A model generated the notes under the pieces. The model did no database searches. It was not told the origin of the DNA and saw only the letters and a list, made by a program, of their open reading frames with translations. A stretch of DNA of 64,000 nucleotides from Undibacterium sp. KW1 (GTDB lineage Bacteria; Pseudomonadota; Gammaproteobacteria; Burkholderiales; Burkholderiaceae_D), in NCBI RefSeq assembly GCF_009937955.1, contig NZ_AP018439.1, forward strand, positions 6,493,366 to 6,557,365, given 5' to 3'. A program made the translations under genes and the position numbers. Below, in pieces: positions 8,369-15,477 of this stretch (positions are counted from its first letter, which is position 1; each line of letters opens with the position of its first letter).

Positions 8369-9772
8369 TCATCCTCCAAAAAACTCCGCATGTATCGCCT
8401 GCAAAGCCAGCTTCCTGTCCTCCTGCTGTACCAGCATATACGCCGCCACCTCGCTGGCACCTGCAGCCGCGAGGCAGACATGCACGCCTGCCGCAATCGC
8501 TGCCGACAGGGCACGGCTGGCGATTGCGCCACCTACATCTGATGCCTCCAGCACACCGTCACCAACCACTGCGACAATAGCCACATCCGCGTTGCGTGAC
8601 ACTTCCACCACACCGGCCAGGTGATGTTCCACCAGTGCAGCGTAAGCCGCATCCAGATGGTCGCGTGATACCAGTATATTGATGGCTGTCTGCGCCGTAA
8701 GCACGCTCTTGATATTGATGCCATTGGCATCCAGCGTATTGGTCACCTGCGCCAGGATGCCAGGTTTGAATCCCACGCCAGGGCCGTGTAATTTCAGTAT
8801 TGCCACGTCTTCTGTCGATGTCACACTCTTCACCACATCACGTGTCACCTTGCGTTGTGCATTGATGATGGTATACGGCAAGAGACCACGCTTGGGACGG
8901 GTGATGTTCAAGATACGGATAGGAATATTCTGGTCGAACAAAGGTTCTACCGTGCGCGGATGCAAGATCTTGGCGCCGAAGTAAGACAGCTCTGCTGCTT
9001 CCAGATAATTCAATTGCGTAATCGTATGCGGTGCACTCACCGTGCCAGGGTCGGCGCTGAGGAAACCATCCACGTCCTTCCATACATCCAGTGATTCTGC
9101 ACCTATGCAGCAGGCGATGGATGCTGCTGAGTAATCTGAGCCGCCGCGGCCAAACAGGGTCGCCTTGCCATCACGATCTACTCCATAAAAGCCCGGCACG
9201 ACGATGACTTCATTGCCTTGCAAGGCTTTCGAGACAGTCGGGGCGCTCGCATCAAAATCACAGGCGGCATTGCCAAATACGCCATCGGTGACCAGACCTA
9301 TGTCTTCTGGCAAGGCTTCGCGTGCGCGTATGCCATGGCTGAGCAAGACTTCGGTCAGCAACAGGCTGGACAGACGTTCACCATAGCTGAGGATGGCATC
9401 ATTGACAAAGGTGGGCACATCACCTATGCAGTGTATGCCGGTCAGATAACGGTCGAGCTGATCAAGGCGTACTGACAGGGCTTTTTCTATACGTGCGCGG
9501 TTGGTGGCATCACTGATATTGGCTTCCAGTATCTGCTTTTTCAGGACACGCAGGTTTTGTGTGTAATCCCGGCTTTCGGCCAGGGCAGCTGCGGTGCCCG
9601 CGCCTTCTCTTGCGGCTTGCACACAGGCGATGAGGGCATTGGTAATGCCATAAAAGGCAGATACCACCAGCACCAGTGGCTGTTGATAAGTTTGCACGAC
9701 ATTGACAACGCGGTTGATATCTTCAGGCTGGCGCAGATTGGAGCCACCAAATTTAACGACAATTTTTTTCAT
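8369..9772 (-). CDS. Aspartate kinase
   Basis: Phosphorylates L-aspartate, the first step towards lysine, threonine and methionine. The protein has 467 residues. The catalytic amino-acid-kinase domain comes first: VVKFGGSNL at the N-terminus, VSAFYGITNALIA, then GRGGSDYSAASIA, VDGFLSADP and YFGAKILHPRT. Two ACT-type regulatory repeats follow from about residue 310 (ILKLHGPGVGFKPGILAQV; DVAIVAVVGDGVLEASDVGG). The length and single function resemble LysC-III or the kinase part of ThrA rather than the roughly 410-residue alpha/beta type that I would expect as the main enzyme in this order, so it may be a second isozyme. It stands alone. Confidence 0.9.
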   Translation of the reverse strand: MKKIVVKFGGSNLRQPEDINRVVNVVQTYQQPLVLVVSAFYGITNALIACVQAAREGAGTAAALAESRDYTQNLRVLKKQILEANISDATNRARIEKALSVRLDQLDRYLTGIHCIGDVPTFVNDAILSYGERLSSLLLTEVLLSHGIRAREALPEDIGLVTDGVFGNAACDFDASAPTVSKALQGNEVIVVPGFYGVDRDGKATLFGRGGSDYSAASIACCIGAESLDVWKDVDGFLSADPGTVSAPHTITQLNYLEAAELSYFGAKILHPRTVEPLFDQNIPIRILNITRPKRGLLPYTIINAQRKVTRDVVKSVTSTEDVAILKLHGPGVGFKPGILAQVTNTLDANGINIKSVLTAQTAINILVSRDHLDAAYAALVEHHLAGVVEVSRNADVAIVAVVGDGVLEASDVGGAIASRALSAAIAAGVHVCLAAAGASEVAAYMLVQQEDRKLALQAIHAEFFGG

Positions 9773-10000: not shown

Positions 10001-11482
10001 ATGAAAAAATGCCAAGCCCCGGATCACCCCCATTGCACGCATTGGGTGGCAGAGGGCGAGGCCGTCTGTGCTGCAGGTCATTCCCAGGCAGCCAGCCCCC
10101 GCAGACAGGAGTTATTGCATGCCTCTGCTGGCAAGCTGATGCAAAAGCGTGTAGCGGTGGCACCCGGTAATCTGCATCTGCATTTCAGCGGTTATGACCC
10201 GCGTGCCGCTGGTGGCCGTCAAACCATAAGGCTGGAGTTGCGTGGCATGTTGCCACCAGATATCAGCATCATCGAAGTGCAATTGCGCTCGGAACTGATA
10301 GCCGCTGGTGCTACAAAGCAACGCCTGCTGCGCACTGCATCTGGACTATGGCAACCCTTGTTGCTCAGCTTTTCTTCCAGAAACAAAGAACATGGGCAAT
10401 ACCCGCTTGAAATCAGCCTGTCGCATGAACAGGTATCGAAGGCCAGGCGTACATGGCTATGTACCAGCGTCATCTTTGTGCCGCGGGCAGACGCATCGCT
10501 GACAGAGATACACAGTGTGTTTTTAACCGCACAAAAGAATATACGGGTCGTAGCGGAAGATGGTGGAATTGCCACGCTCAGCGGATTGGGCCAGTCGAAC
10601 GGTTATGCGCAAGGCAATATGAATATTGAAATCAGTGCCACGGATGCCTCTATAGCCAAACTGGACATGCGTCCACCGTCAGGCAAATATGAAATCGCCA
10701 TGGGCACTATTGCCTGGGATGAAGAACTCATGGAAATCACTGGCGAACCTGAAGCCCCGTTGGCAATAGCCACTTCTGCCAGGCCAGAGAAAGTGCCGCC
10801 AGCCAGGCCAGCAACAAACACGTCAAAAACAACTGCAACACGATGGGCCGGCCTCACGGGACAACAGACCCGGCCTCACAGCAATATGCGGCTCTTTGCC
10901 CTGGATGAGTATGTGCTTGGCCGAATGGAGCAACATCCACAGGCTGACATTCTGCTCAGTCACCGCACCAGTAGCGCAGCAGAAAATGTCAGACTGACAC
11001 GCCGCATCAGCGCCCGCCATGCCCTCATCCGCTGGAAGGGCGTGCGAGCAGAAATCACCGATGTCTCGCGCTATGGCACTTTGCTCGATGGCATGGTCAT
11101 GGAAAAAGACCTGCCCTATGCTTTAAGTGCAGGCATGCAGATAGAGTTCTGCGCCAGCGTCAGAGGCATAGTCCGGCTACAGGTCATGGCGATACTGCCG
11201 CATGCCATGATCATTGCCGAGATAGATGCAGGGGCAGGAAGCGATTTGTTATACCTGATCAAACCAGAAACCCGCCCCCAGGCCGCCGCACAAAGTCCGC
11301 CAGCAGGCTTGCCACTGGTATTTCATTTTCAGGGTGGGTTCTGGCACCGGGACATAGCGACATTGCAAGAAAACAGCCTGGATGCACACACTGATTTGAA
11401 GGCAATTCCTCAGTTGGCATCAGTAGGTCGGTATGCAAGTGTGCCTTATGCAGGCGTACAGGACTATGGGACAAGATACTGA
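10001..11482 (+). CDS. FHA domain protein with N-terminal Cys/His cluster (cassette gene 1)
   Basis: A 493-residue protein. Residues 4-27 hold cysteines and histidines (C4, H9, C12, H14, C23, H27) that could bind zinc. Residues about 45-255 form a beta-rich region I cannot assign. Residues about 295-410 are a forkhead-associated domain: YVLGRMEQHP, then ISARHALIRW, and TDVSRYGTLLDG, which carry the family's glycine-arginine, S-x-R-H and G-T-x-x-D/N-G positions. FHA domains bind phosphothreonine. The Ser/Thr kinase two genes downstream is an obvious writer for this reader. No signal peptide or membrane segment is visible. No strong ribosome-binding site precedes the ATG. The middle and C-terminal parts are of unknown function. 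Confidence 0.85.
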   Translation: MKKCQAPDHPHCTHWVAEGEAVCAAGHSQAASPRRQELLHASAGKLMQKRVAVAPGNLHLHFSGYDPRAAGGRQTIRLELRGMLPPDISIIEVQLRSELIAAGATKQRLLRTASGLWQPLLLSFSSRNKEHGQYPLEISLSHEQVSKARRTWLCTSVIFVPRADASLTEIHSVFLTAQKNIRVVAEDGGIATLSGLGQSNGYAQGNMNIEISATDASIAKLDMRPPSGKYEIAMGTIAWDEELMEITGEPEAPLAIATSARPEKVPPARPATNTSKTTATRWAGLTGQQTRPHSNMRLFALDEYVLGRMEQHPQADILLSHRTSSAAENVRLTRRISARHALIRWKGVRAEITDVSRYGTLLDGMVMEKDLPYALSAGMQIEFCASVRGIVRLQVMAILPHAMIIAEIDAGAGSDLLYLIKPETRPQAAAQSPPAGLPLVFHFQGGFWHRDIATLQENSLDAHTDLKAIPQLASVGRYASVPYAGVQDYGTRY

Positions 11483-11695
11483 TTGCCCGCAAATAAGACA
11501 TTTCTTAACATTCTTCAGCATTCCTCTGTGCCCCTGCCCAATGTGTTGAAAGGTCTTGTCTTTTCCATACAAATCACGATCTGGCCCTAAAACCCCCTTC
11601 TGTTCCCGTCTTTCAAATCTACCCCCGGTGCTACCATTTTTGCTCAGGTGCAGTTCCCTCGTCCCCGCACCGCGCCGCGATAGAAGGAGTTCCCC

Positions 11696-13951
11696 ATGTT
11701 CAGCATCTTTGCCAGTTCCAAGCTCAAATGCCCTCAGTGCGACCATAACAATATACAAGATGCAATTTATTGTACGCATTGTGGCCTGATGCTGAGCAGC
11801 CCTCGCCATGAGACGATATTGCGCCACAATCGCTGGCTGCCAAAAGAGAACGAGGTCGCCATGTATTTTGGCGTGCGTCCACTCAACAGCATTACCAAAC
11901 AGGATTTGCATATCCCGGTCAGCGCCCGCGCGTATATATTGCAAGAAGGACGTTTCGTTGAATTGCAGGCCGGTGACTATATAGGGCAAGACATCAGCAG
12001 CCAGCTCATGGGTTTGCAGACCGACAGAGCGGCAGAAATCTTGCTGACGCGCCTGAATCCCTTTGCCCTGCTGTTCAGTTTTGAAGACCTGCATACGGCA
12101 GAATTTCTGGCTATCGCAGCCAAATTTGTCATCAGCGTCAAGATTGCCGACGTGCCTGCATTTGCCAAACACTTCATGGCTGCGCCAGGCATCATCACCT
12201 GCCAGCAATTGCAACAATTGCTGGAACCCATGGTGCGTCAGATTGCGCTTGAATTCCTGGGCGCACAATCCTTAAGGGACTTGCAAGACAATGTCCACCT
12301 GCGCCAGCAACTCGATGAGCGTTTGCTCTCGACACTGAATTTGTCGATTGCGGAATATGGTTTCGTCGCGACCCAGGCCGTGACCCGCGAAGTGCGGCAT
12401 GACAAGCTGACAGATGACAGGGAAAAAATCAGTGAAAGAATAAGCAGCATGCATCTGATTATCGATGGTCAGCGCGCCAAGCTGGAACAAAGCAAACTTA
12501 TCGATGCACTCTATACCAATAGTGAATGGCAAAAGATCGCCAGACAGGAAGAGCAAATCCGCCTGCGTTACCGCCATGAAGAAATGCGCCAGCAGTTTGG
12601 CAAAGACCTGGGCTGGCTCTACATGCAAGGCCATGCAGAGGATGCAAAAAAACGCCTGAGCCGTGCCAAGTTGCGCCAGGATGAAAATGAAAGACTGCAA
12701 ACCATACGCGCGCGTGAGCTGGAATTGTATGGCCGCATTGCCGATGCCACCACCCGCAAACATGCGCTGGAACGCGGTGCCGCAGAGACCATCAAAGAAC
12801 TGGAACACGGTCTCAAGCAGAAATCCGAACATCGCCAGAACGAAGCAGACCAGTGGCTGCATATACGCACCATGGCACGTATCAAGATGCGTTCAGAATC
12901 AGAAATCACCCAGCTTCAGGGTAAGGAAGCTGCGCAACTGATGCAGCAAAAAATCCAGCATCAGTTAAAAAAATTCCAGCTCGAACACGAGTTTGCGCAA
13001 GCCAACCTGATCGCTGACCAGGAACAGCAAAAAGTCCAGACAGAATTATTGCGCCACAGGCAAAACCAGTTGGCACGCCGTGAGCAGGAACTGGAAGAGG
13101 AAGAACAAAAAAGCCGCCTGATACTGATCAGCATAGAAGCAGAAGCCAAGGCCAGGGAGTTCCAACGCATACAGGCATGGGAAGAAGAATTGCAACAGCA
13201 GCGCACACGTGCGTTGCAACGTGAAGACAGCATCAGCGATGTGGATACTGCATTCAAACTCAGCCAGGTGCAGGAAAAGATCAATGGCATCAAACGCAAC
13301 GACAGCCAGGCCGATGCCATGGCCCAGCATGAAAAGCTGCTGACGACGTTGAAAGCCCATGCCCTGTTTGAACAACAAACGCAGCAGCAACAACATCAGG
13401 CCAGGCTGGCCGAGGTGGAAATAGAAACCCTGCGCCAGCAACTCAGGCAGCAAGAAGATGAACGTCGCTGGAAAAAAGAACTGCAACAGGCAGAAGCCGA
13501 GCGGGCTGACAAATTCGCCAGACTCAGCCTGGAACGCGAACAGCGCCAGGCTGAACAGGCGCATGATGCCCTGCTGGCCCGCATTGCCATAGAGCGCATG
13601 AACGCCATCGCCAACTTTAGCGAAACCGGCAAGATCGCCACTGCCGATCCAGCCAATGCGATTGCACTGGCCGAGATCGTCAAGGTTCAGGCACAAGCCA
13701 GCCTGACGGCTGAACAAATCCTCGCCATGCAGGCTGGCAGCTCAGAACATGCTGCCAATGCCATGAGTGCCCTGGTCAGTGCGCAGCAAGGCATGAGTTG
13801 GGAGCAGGCCGTCAAGATGTTGCAAGAGCGCATACAGGACGAACGCGGGCAAAGAGAAGCTGAACAGCAAAGGCGTCATGAGATAGACCTGAGCATGGCG
13901 CAAAACCTGGGCAGCCGTGTAGCGCAGTCGGGCCAGGCAGGTAGAAAATAG
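11696..13951 (+). CDS. Zinc-ribbon, SPFH-like and long coiled-coil protein (cassette gene 2)
   Basis: A 751-residue protein with a good ribosome-binding site (AAGGAG). Residues 12-29 are a zinc ribbon (CPQC and CTHC). Residues about 45-240 resemble the SPFH/band-7 (prohibitin-like) fold of YdjI-type proteins: VPVSARAYILQEGRFVELQA-like strands, then LLSTLNLSIAEYGF before the helical part. From about 245 to 640 it is almost continuous coiled coil rich in Q, E, R and K. A final segment (NAIALAEIVKVQAQASLTAE) resembles the tail of SPFH proteins. SPFH proteins form ring- or cage-like membrane scaffolds; no transmembrane helix is seen. The likely role is a large scaffold controlled by the neighbouring kinase (inference). 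The SPFH call is from pattern only. Confidence 0.8.
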   Translation: MFSIFASSKLKCPQCDHNNIQDAIYCTHCGLMLSSPRHETILRHNRWLPKENEVAMYFGVRPLNSITKQDLHIPVSARAYILQEGRFVELQAGDYIGQDISSQLMGLQTDRAAEILLTRLNPFALLFSFEDLHTAEFLAIAAKFVISVKIADVPAFAKHFMAAPGIITCQQLQQLLEPMVRQIALEFLGAQSLRDLQDNVHLRQQLDERLLSTLNLSIAEYGFVATQAVTREVRHDKLTDDREKISERISSMHLIIDGQRAKLEQSKLIDALYTNSEWQKIARQEEQIRLRYRHEEMRQQFGKDLGWLYMQGHAEDAKKRLSRAKLRQDENERLQTIRARELELYGRIADATTRKHALERGAAETIKELEHGLKQKSEHRQNEADQWLHIRTMARIKMRSESEITQLQGKEAAQLMQQKIQHQLKKFQLEHEFAQANLIADQEQQKVQTELLRHRQNQLARREQELEEEEQKSRLILISIEAEAKAREFQRIQAWEEELQQQRTRALQREDSISDVDTAFKLSQVQEKINGIKRNDSQADAMAQHEKLLTTLKAHALFEQQTQQQQHQARLAEVEIETLRQQLRQQEDERRWKKELQQAEAERADKFARLSLEREQRQAEQAHDALLARIAIERMNAIANFSETGKIATADPANAIALAEIVKVQAQASLTAEQILAMQAGSSEHAANAMSALVSAQQGMSWEQAVKMLQERIQDERGQREAEQQRRHEIDLSMAQNLGSRVAQSGQAGRK

Positions 13952-14043
13952 GTAATTAAAGAATGTAGTCGAGTACAGCAAAAATTGATCTTAAGCCCTA
14001 TACCCCTAGCCCTATACCCATTTGAAGAACCCAGCCCCTGACA

Positions 14044-15477
14044 ATGCAAACGCCACTACAAAAAATCCGTGAATTGCGCGCATTGCTGGATGAAGGTCTG
14101 CTCACAGAAGACGAATTCACGCAACGCAAAGACGCTATTCTCGATAATGAGCTTGCCCCTGCTATTTCCAGGCAGACCAGCAAAGCCGCGCAAGAAGCGG
14201 CACAGGGCACTGACCTGGGTTTTCTGGCGGGGCAAGAAGTGGGTGGTGTTTCCAAACGCTACAGGCTGGAAAAACTCCTGGGGCAAGGCGGCATGGGCCA
14301 GGTGTGGCAAGCCAGCGACCTGGCAACCCAGGCTGAGCTTGGGCATAGCGAGACGGTTGCGCTCAAGATCTTGCCGCCACAACTTACCCAGAGTGCCCTG
14401 CATGCACGCCTCCTGGTGGAAGAAGCCTCGCTGGTGCGCAGGCTCGCGCATGAGCATATCGTCAGGGTCTATGACTGGGCCCGCGACCCGGCCACCAACA
14501 GCTATTTCATCATCATGGAATATCTGGACGGGCACGATCTGGAAAACTATCTCATCAAGCATACCCGCTGCACCCTCAAGCAAGTGCTGGACATGCTCAG
14601 CCCTGTGGCCGATGCACTCGATTATGCCTGGGGCAAACACAAACTCGTGCACCGTGATCTGAAACCGAGTAACCTCTTGCTGACAACAGCAGGTGACATC
14701 AAACTGCTTGATTTTGGCATCTCGGCACGTTTGCGCAGCCATACCCAGGCAGGCTTGATTTCAACCAGCATGACCCCTTCGCGTTCTCCCTATGCGGGTA
14801 CCGCAGGTTACCGCGCGCCGGAAGCTGGCAGCCATCAGCACAGTCCCGGTCTGGATGTGTATGCCGTTGCTGTCATGATTTACCAGATGCTGGAAGCGGC
14901 CATGCCCTTTGGCGAATATCGCCACCCTCAGCAGCAACCGATACAACCAGCTGCACTGAACGCCGCCCAATGGCAAGTCTTGCAAAGTGGTTTTGCCATC
15001 CAGCCAGACCAGCGCCCTGCCAGTGTGCGTGCGTTATTGCAAACTCTGCAGGCTGCAGCCAGGCCGCTTGGCAACGCAGCACAAAGCAAGGCAGCCAGTC
15101 ATGGCAAACAGCCAGAAATAAAAGAATCCCCAATAGAGGCAGCAGCCCGCCAGCGCGCCGAACAAAGACGGCAACGTAAGGAACTGGAAAAACAAAGACG
15201 CGAACAAGCCAGCGCTGCCCTGCGTGCACTCATTGCCAGACAAAATCGTCTGCATGCCATAGAAGATGCCCAGCGTCGTCAGAAAGACGAACAACAGCGC
15301 CTGCACAAAGAACAGCAAGAACAAAAACGCCTGCAGGAAGAGGCGATGACTGCGGTTACACATAGCGGTGCACCAGGGGATGTCACCATTACATGGGAAG
15401 AAGCACAGCGCTATCTTGCCGCCATCAGCCGCAACACAGGATCAGAGAACGGGCAAGTTCCTGGCATGACAGCGTGA
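14044..15477 (+). CDS. Serine/threonine protein kinase with N-terminal SHOCT domain (cassette gene 3)
   Basis: A 477-residue Hanks-type kinase. Residues 3-30 match a SHOCT domain (LRALLDEGLLTEDEF). The kinase domain spans about 76-345: glycine loop LGQGGMGQVW, catalytic lysine K108 (VALKIL), HRDLKPSN at 203-210 with D205, and DFG at 223-225. All key residues are present, so it should be active. After a Q/A-rich link, residues about 365-440 are a highly charged coiled coil (AEQRRQRKELEKQRREQ). No transmembrane segment or extracellular sensor is seen, unlike PknB. It lies 92 bases after the SPFH-like gene on the same strand. Substrates may be the two upstream products (inference). Confidence 0.92.
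   Translation: MQTPLQKIRELRALLDEGLLTEDEFTQRKDAILDNELAPAISRQTSKAAQEAAQGTDLGFLAGQEVGGVSKRYRLEKLLGQGGMGQVWQASDLATQAELGHSETVALKILPPQLTQSALHARLLVEEASLVRRLAHEHIVRVYDWARDPATNSYFIIMEYLDGHDLENYLIKHTRCTLKQVLDMLSPVADALDYAWGKHKLVHRDLKPSNLLLTTAGDIKLLDFGISARLRSHTQAGLISTSMTPSRSPYAGTAGYRAPEAGSHQHSPGLDVYAVAVMIYQMLEAAMPFGEYRHPQQQPIQPAALNAAQWQVLQSGFAIQPDQRPASVRALLQTLQAAARPLGNAAQSKAASHGKQPEIKESPIEAAARQRAEQRRQRKELEKQRREQASAALRALIARQNRLHAIEDAQRRQKDEQQRLHKEQQEQKRLQEEAMTAVTHSGAPGDVTITWEEAQRYLAAISRNTGSENGQVPGMTA

Follow-up and report, generated by a model that had tools for sequence, protein, structure and literature searches.

In Undibacterium sp. KW1, three consecutive plus-strand genes encode an FHA protein, a scaffold in which an N-terminal zinc ribbon and an SPFH domain are followed by long helices, and a Ser/Thr kinase with an N-terminal SHOCT domain, and the question raised by this locus is which cellular process such a trio serves. 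Here we analyze the 64,000-nucleotide stretch that contains it (contig NZ_AP018439.1, positions 6,493,366 to 6,557,365; hereafter the window), where gaps of 213 and 92 nucleotides separate the genes in the order FHA, scaffold, kinase. The reading we favor, to which we give an even chance, is that the SPFH scaffold is under phospho-control and serves the envelope, and that many relatives couple it to a dedicated wall synthase. It draws on the genes themselves, their folds and catalytic motifs, their co-inheritance and order, and the extra wall-synthase genes found beside them in other species.

Three proteins that are inherited together

The motifs and gene order described in an earlier reading of this DNA (the original prediction) were confirmed. 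The kinase has intact GQGGMG, VALK, HRDLKP and DFG motifs, in keeping with the apparently active kinase described there, and HRD and DFG recur in all 68 open reading frames (ORFs) of the kinase family. Its best-scoring solved relatives are mycobacterial PknA (4e-28) and then PknB. Neither a PASTA match (Pfam) nor a transmembrane window (hydropathy) is detected in this kinase, in keeping with the predicted lack of a transmembrane sensor, and its score of 189 against the PknB_PASTA model falls below the cut-off of 450. By hydropathy, a typical transmembrane segment is absent from all three trio proteins.

The scaffold, whose nearest named relative is a 98% identical protein of Undibacterium sp. 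YM2, adopts the predicted SPFH/band-7 fold in an AlphaFold2 model with supporting structure matches (Table 1). DSSP assigns long helices in the model to residues 363-437, 442-532 and 538-639, which lie in a region (residues 240-639) that probably forms a coiled coil. Cys12, Cys15, Cys26 and Cys29 of the zinc ribbon are each kept in at least 90% of 21 aligned rows. The FHA domain of the first protein scores above its Pfam cut-off (6.2e-8; 33.4 bits versus 20.7), and its Arg308, Ser337 and His340, which together with the usual Asn position we take to be the phospho-Thr binding-loop residues, are invariant in 21 aligned rows. The C4-C12-C23-H27 cluster at the N terminus of this protein may bind metal.

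To describe distribution, we sampled 145 genomes of the family, counted only full-length or near-full-length scaffold and FHA relatives, and accepted a kinase as a close relative at a best E of at most 1e-90 (the next best being 4e-36). The scaffold is present in 36 of the 145 genomes, and exactly these 36 have a close kinase relative; long FHA-protein matches were obtained in them and in one further genome that is 68% complete (G102), 37 in total; the predicted co-occurrence of all three thus holds in 36 of 36 scaffold-bearing genomes. Four short FHA-domain matches (G068, G073, G143, G187) and two zinc-ribbon-only scaffold matches (G066, G104) were left out of these counts. By coordinates read by hand, the scaffold and kinase genes are neighbors in 35 of the 36 genomes, G060 being the exception; the FHA match of G060 contains a TGA. 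FHA and scaffold genes lie no more than 20 kb apart in 30 of 31 genomes with both on one contig, and on different contigs in the other 5. The trio genes clearly travel together, in counts that are inflated by genome kinship.

Carriers of the module belong to Undibacterium, Massilia, Duganella, Janthinobacterium, Rugamonas and Pseudoduganella. In the window's genus the scaffold occurs in 15 of 36 genomes, and in none of the 24 order-level genomes of the same sample. A scaffold profile run against 369 class genomes returned only the window's own protein, with at most two candidates per genome scored, so that distant relatives may escape. In 399 order genomes (at most three candidates each), an FHA profile returned six long matches confined to the same family, along with four short FHA-domain matches outside it.

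Gene order was compared in the best 80 of 149 loci, comprising 12 of Undibacterium type (11 so named and one metagenome-assembled genome, L022) and 68 others. In all 80, the kinase gene lies downstream of the scaffold gene on the same strand. The FHA gene is upstream on the same strand in 9 of the 12 Undibacterium-type loci, and no ORF of at least 90 amino acids (aa) intervenes before the scaffold in 7. The proposed conservation of adjacency therefore stands for the scaffold-kinase pair in every locus, while the strict three-gene order is limited to these 7 and is seen in 0 of the 68 others. Minus-strand ORFs lie between FHA and scaffold at L024:6566-9142 (99 and 743 aa) and L022:3538-4296 (252 aa), and L026 ends too early to show an FHA gene. 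The Undibacterium loci L027 and L028 show no FHA gene over about 10 kb and instead share a minus-strand ORF of ~800 aa that belongs to one family.

The kinases of the two sets also differ in length. Open frames of the Undibacterium-type loci (12) span 443-520 codons; among the other 68, 64 have frames of 730-879 codons and 4 have frames of 355-566. An FGE motif occurs in 53 of 56 other kinase-family ORFs versus 0 of 12 Undibacterium-type ones, and in one relative kinase Pfam places a C-terminal FGE-sulfatase domain (PF03781, 9.1e-59) at residues 517-768 that it does not find in the window kinase. PMC3581485 reports one protein with an N-terminal SHOCT domain, a kinase, a peptidoglycan-binding domain and a C-terminal FGE domain. 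The SHOCT-kinase-FGE order is repeated in one relative here, its SHOCT just below the Pfam cut-off; as described there, the reported protein adds the peptidoglycan-binding domain, and the window kinase lacks FGE.

Wall-synthesis and signaling genes beside the core in relatives

New here is that the scaffold-kinase pair closes a larger, transpeptidase-headed operon in related genera. Such an operon runs into the scaffold in 57 of the 68 non-Undibacterium loci; of the 59 whose upstream sequence reaches 8 kb or more, 53 have it. The FHA gene lies 2.5-9.4 kb off on the opposite strand in 47 of the 68, and in 44 of the 55 that continue downstream for 9.5 kb or more. PP2C stands beside FHA in 29 of the 68, and SEDS or its partner protein was seen in 26, two counts that are too low because the loci end there. 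No members of the transpeptidase, PP2C or SEDS families were found in the 12 Undibacterium-type loci. The suggestion that the module is self-contained fits Undibacterium only; many relatives add the transpeptidase and, farther off, SEDS, PP2C and a second kinase.

The operon-head transpeptidase matches PF00905 (8.5e-16, one protein) and carries the motifs SxxK, SxN and KTG in 48, 45 and 49 of 49 sequences. Its nearest NCBIfam model is PBP2 (2.4e-18 in another protein), at 66 bits versus a cut-off of 455, so “PBP2-like” names the closest model and nothing more. At L145:2112-3353, immediately ahead of the transpeptidase gene, the sequence is a run of N (masked or unassembled). Between transpeptidase and scaffold lie four proteins that reach no family cut-off. 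In the extended groups, five proteins (L088:5744-9904, L144:8115-9644; about 453, 191, 353, 386 and 510 aa) recur across Massilia, Duganella and their relatives, and none of them has a Pfam or NCBIfam match above cut-off. One candidate, L088 7689-8747, was dropped as a second SPFH protein at a profile-comparison probability of 0.2; comparison of six family profiles to the SPFH region, and of five to the FHA protein, reached 0.7 at best.

In three genomes (G127, G166, G154) a convergent group comprises a kinase, SEDS, an uncharacterized protein, PP2C and FHA, with other ORFs interspersed. The second kinase is short, about 320-330 aa (Pfam 8.6e-28 and 2e-31 in the two proteins scanned), and in each of the three genomes its gene stands immediately before that of the extra SEDS protein. 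The one extra SEDS protein scanned matches PF01098 at 1.2e-18; the nearest NCBIfam model is RodA (2.4e-15; 56.5 bits versus a cut-off of 336.7), with FtsW close behind. About 300 residues precede its SEDS part and include one early hydrophobic segment. We do not claim an FHA-like fold for this N-terminal part, which reached a profile probability of 37% from three sequences and has no Pfam FHA match. A divergent SEDS copy (59-76 bits) lies near FHA in 6 of 10 genomes, besides the canonical copies (about 318-350 bits). Of these six, the transpeptidase query covered four (G077, G127, G154, G166), all of which have the gene; the other two are G103 and G145.

The PP2C protein matches PP2C_2 (2.5e-7, one protein), and as a query it finds relatives at about 3e-104 or better in G077, G127, G154, G166 and G177. 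In the 15 scaffold-bearing Undibacterium genomes its matches are weak (best 5.5e-9), as they are in G060 (1.8e-7) and, elsewhere in the genome, in the window genome itself (best 8e-8). The transpeptidase query returned nothing in G177 or G060, and the SEDS partner protein is missing in G177 and gives a weak hit (3.3e-29) in G060. The window genome contains only canonical SEDS genes, away from the trio; the match to the second of these, at G000:C1:891363-892447, is split in two, with a pair of TGA codons in one part, perhaps through an assembly error or frameshift. A weak third SEDS match (29 bits) lies elsewhere in one Undibacterium genome, G031.

A quick, unrooted tree of 80 scaffolds separates the 12 Undibacterium-type sequences from the rest by a branch with full support. 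Presence or absence of the transpeptidase changes 8 times on this tree, a figure in which 5 loci that are cut short count as lacking the gene. Outside Undibacterium its absence is certain in 6 loci; these need 3 changes and lie among carriers, which looks like loss there. With the root of the tree not fixed, the wall genes may have been lost from Undibacterium or may never have been present in it.

Proposed envelope control and competing explanations

The extra wall enzymes beside the core in many related species suggest envelope control, and a membrane or envelope role is plausible. Under the favored reading, the trio would form the conserved core of a Ser/Thr phospho-signaling module in which the SPFH protein may assemble at the membrane's inner face into a ring or cage and hold the soluble kinase there, probably through the SHOCT and helical parts. 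The kinase would phosphorylate a partner on Thr, the FHA protein would read that mark, and the output would be control of envelope growth or repair. Many carriers would wire this core to their additional SEDS-transpeptidase pair, the PP2C phosphatase and the second kinase. Undibacterium keeps the core only, so there it must act on other targets.

Several observations weigh against this reading. Tyr358 occupies the usual FHA Asn position, as placed by eye, in 21 of 21 rows, so phospho-Thr binding by the FHA protein is not assured. The scaffold has no membrane anchor by hydropathy. In the 15 scaffold-bearing Undibacterium genomes, the transpeptidase query was empty and the SEDS partner protein absent in every case, and no extra SEDS was found in the three of them searched. 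The transpeptidase is likewise missing from six non-Undibacterium loci whose upstream sequence extends 8 kb or more, and G177 has kinase, scaffold, PP2C and FHA but neither transpeptidase nor extra SEDS. Because the core persists without wall genes in Undibacterium and G177, wall synthesis is not its only job. Finally, G060 holds a dispersed trio, at three distant places on one contig, with a divergent scaffold.

The nearest parallel in gene content, though not in ancestry, is the actinobacterial locus fhaA-fhaB-pstP-rodA-pbpA-pknA-pknB, a seven-gene cluster of pstP, rodA, pbpA, kinases and FHA genes according to PMC6554272. Like the extended relatives, it gathers Ser/Thr kinases, PP2C, FHA, SEDS and a transpeptidase in one region. 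It differs in that the window kinase has neither a PASTA match nor a transmembrane part, that an SPFH scaffold with zinc ribbons is central, that the genes of relatives form two convergent groups, and that transpeptidase, extra SEDS and any close PP2C relative are missing from the window genome. A bolder proposal, which we advance tentatively and expect to be wrong more often than right, is that the Gram-negative Oxalobacteraceae arrived on their own at a counterpart of the actinobacterial kinase-phosphatase-FHA-RodA-PBP locus for wall control. A cytoplasmic SPFH cage would replace the external PASTA sensor and drive a dedicated SEDS-transpeptidase synthase, and the bare core of Undibacterium would regulate housekeeping synthases. 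If true, phospho-control of a peptidoglycan synthase by kinase, phosphatase and FHA extends beyond Actinobacteria and Firmicutes, and a Gram-negative version with an SPFH hub offers a testable link from membrane scaffold to wall synthesis. The extra SEDS-transpeptidase pair raises the question of which part of the wall it builds, and when.

Alternatively, the SPFH scaffold might detect membrane damage and the kinase and FHA protein relay it, as a membrane-stress sensor like Psp/YdjI for which the relatives' wall genes are merely one among several outputs. Bacillus subtilis YdjI is required for placing PspA on the membrane (PMC8581546); like the scaffold here, it is an SPFH protein, probably soluble, whose gene belongs to an envelope-linked group. 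The core's existence without a transpeptidase in all 15 Undibacterium genomes tested fits this idea. However, the 10 named genes flanking the window trio include no PspA, a kinase and FHA protein standing with the scaffold instead; none appears among the identified recurrent neighbors, though many neighbors remain without identification, and the recurrent enzymes that are identified make cell wall. We therefore regard a Psp-like sensor as doubtful. Flotillin and major vault protein join SPFH to long helices and build cages. A closed compartment of this kind, enclosing the kinase or its targets, would agree with Foldseek matches of the scaffold model to flotillin (3.6e-9) and major vault protein (1.6e-6), but the long alignments have very large root-mean-square deviations, about 54-86 Å, so only the SPFH part is truly matched and we consider the compartment improbable. 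Cage formation by flotillin is described in PMC11260169.

The original prediction also raised a phage response, for which little support emerged. An anti-phage or other conflict system triggered by the kinase would account for the kinase's match to PADLOC mad6 (2.4e-57, residues 42-435, covering kinase domain and tail, for a model without a stated cut-off) and to many PD-T4-6 kinase models. The curated MADS6 model nonetheless gives 128 bits versus a cut-off of 460, only 1 of 10 flanking genes has a PADLOC match, a weak one (9.1e-7, 26.5 bits), and in a protein search with the scaffold alone no phage or plasmid record matches. The Undibacterium-type scaffolds moreover fall on one side of a supported branch, as vertical descent predicts. 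No defense or mobile context was found around the trio, and on these data phage defense is unlikely, to the point that we give it very little weight. Still less credence goes to kinship with the type VI secretion threonine-phosphorylation switch PpkA-PppA-Fha, which is built from the same kinds of parts, kinase and FHA, with PP2C here in relatives only. The FHA protein matches no NCBIfam model, no secretion gene lies among the 10 named flanking genes (the search covering these alone), and SPFH, present here, is to our knowledge not part of that switch.

Partial likenesses to the scaffold exist in other settings. The archaeal Meth_adaptin ESCRT group includes, according to PMC10936438, a protein that resembles the scaffold in domain content, combining SPFH, coiled coil and zinc ribbon; that group has ESCRT partners, of which none is among the genes named here. 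FHA is listed as an occasional effector domain in PMC7159879. A literature search, in which subscription papers were poorly covered, found no paper on the make-up described here.

Features and surroundings of the locus

Table 1. Positions of trio features in the window and of two additional genes at loci of relatives (L numbers); aa, amino acids.
Feature	Position	Strand	Basis
FHA protein gene (493 aa)	10001..11482	+	ORF
N-terminal Cys/His cluster C4-C12-C23-H27, putative zinc site	10010..10081	+	Invariant, 21 aligned rows
Beta-sandwich region, weakly C2-like, FHA protein residues 55-246	10163..10738	+	
FHA domain, residues 304-383	10910..11149	+	Pfam
Zinc-ribbon/SPFH/long-helix scaffold gene (751 aa)	11696..13951	+	ORF
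N-terminal zinc ribbon, residues 11-30	11726..11785	+	Pfam 4e-4 to 1e-3, below cut-off
SPFH domain, residues 64-236	11885..12403	+	AlphaFold2 model; matches prohibitin, stomatin, flotillin
Long helical, probably coiled-coil region, residues 240-639	12413..13612	+	DSSP on model
SHOCT-Ser/Thr kinase gene (477 aa)	14044..15477	+	ORF
SHOCT domain, residues 7-33	14062..14142	+	Pfam 5.2e-7, above cut-off
Protein kinase domain, residues 73-298	14260..14937	+	Pfam Pkinase 1.2e-41
Charged, coil-like C-terminal kinase tail	15106..15363	+	From sequence
Second kinase gene	L144:11992-12951, L142:17080-18069, L146:7641-8606	minus	
Extra SEDS gene	L144:9641-11989	minus	

A promoter and terminator scan gave numbers close to those of shuffled sequence (4 versus a mean of 3.5, and 10 versus a mean of 7.6), and the window contains no tRNA or Rfam matches. 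The divergent neighbor of the trio is an aspartokinase-like gene on the minus strand (window 8369-9772). This gene is patchy too, because a close relative is found in only 4 of 13 trio-free Undibacterium genomes, in one of the four in pieces with a stop.

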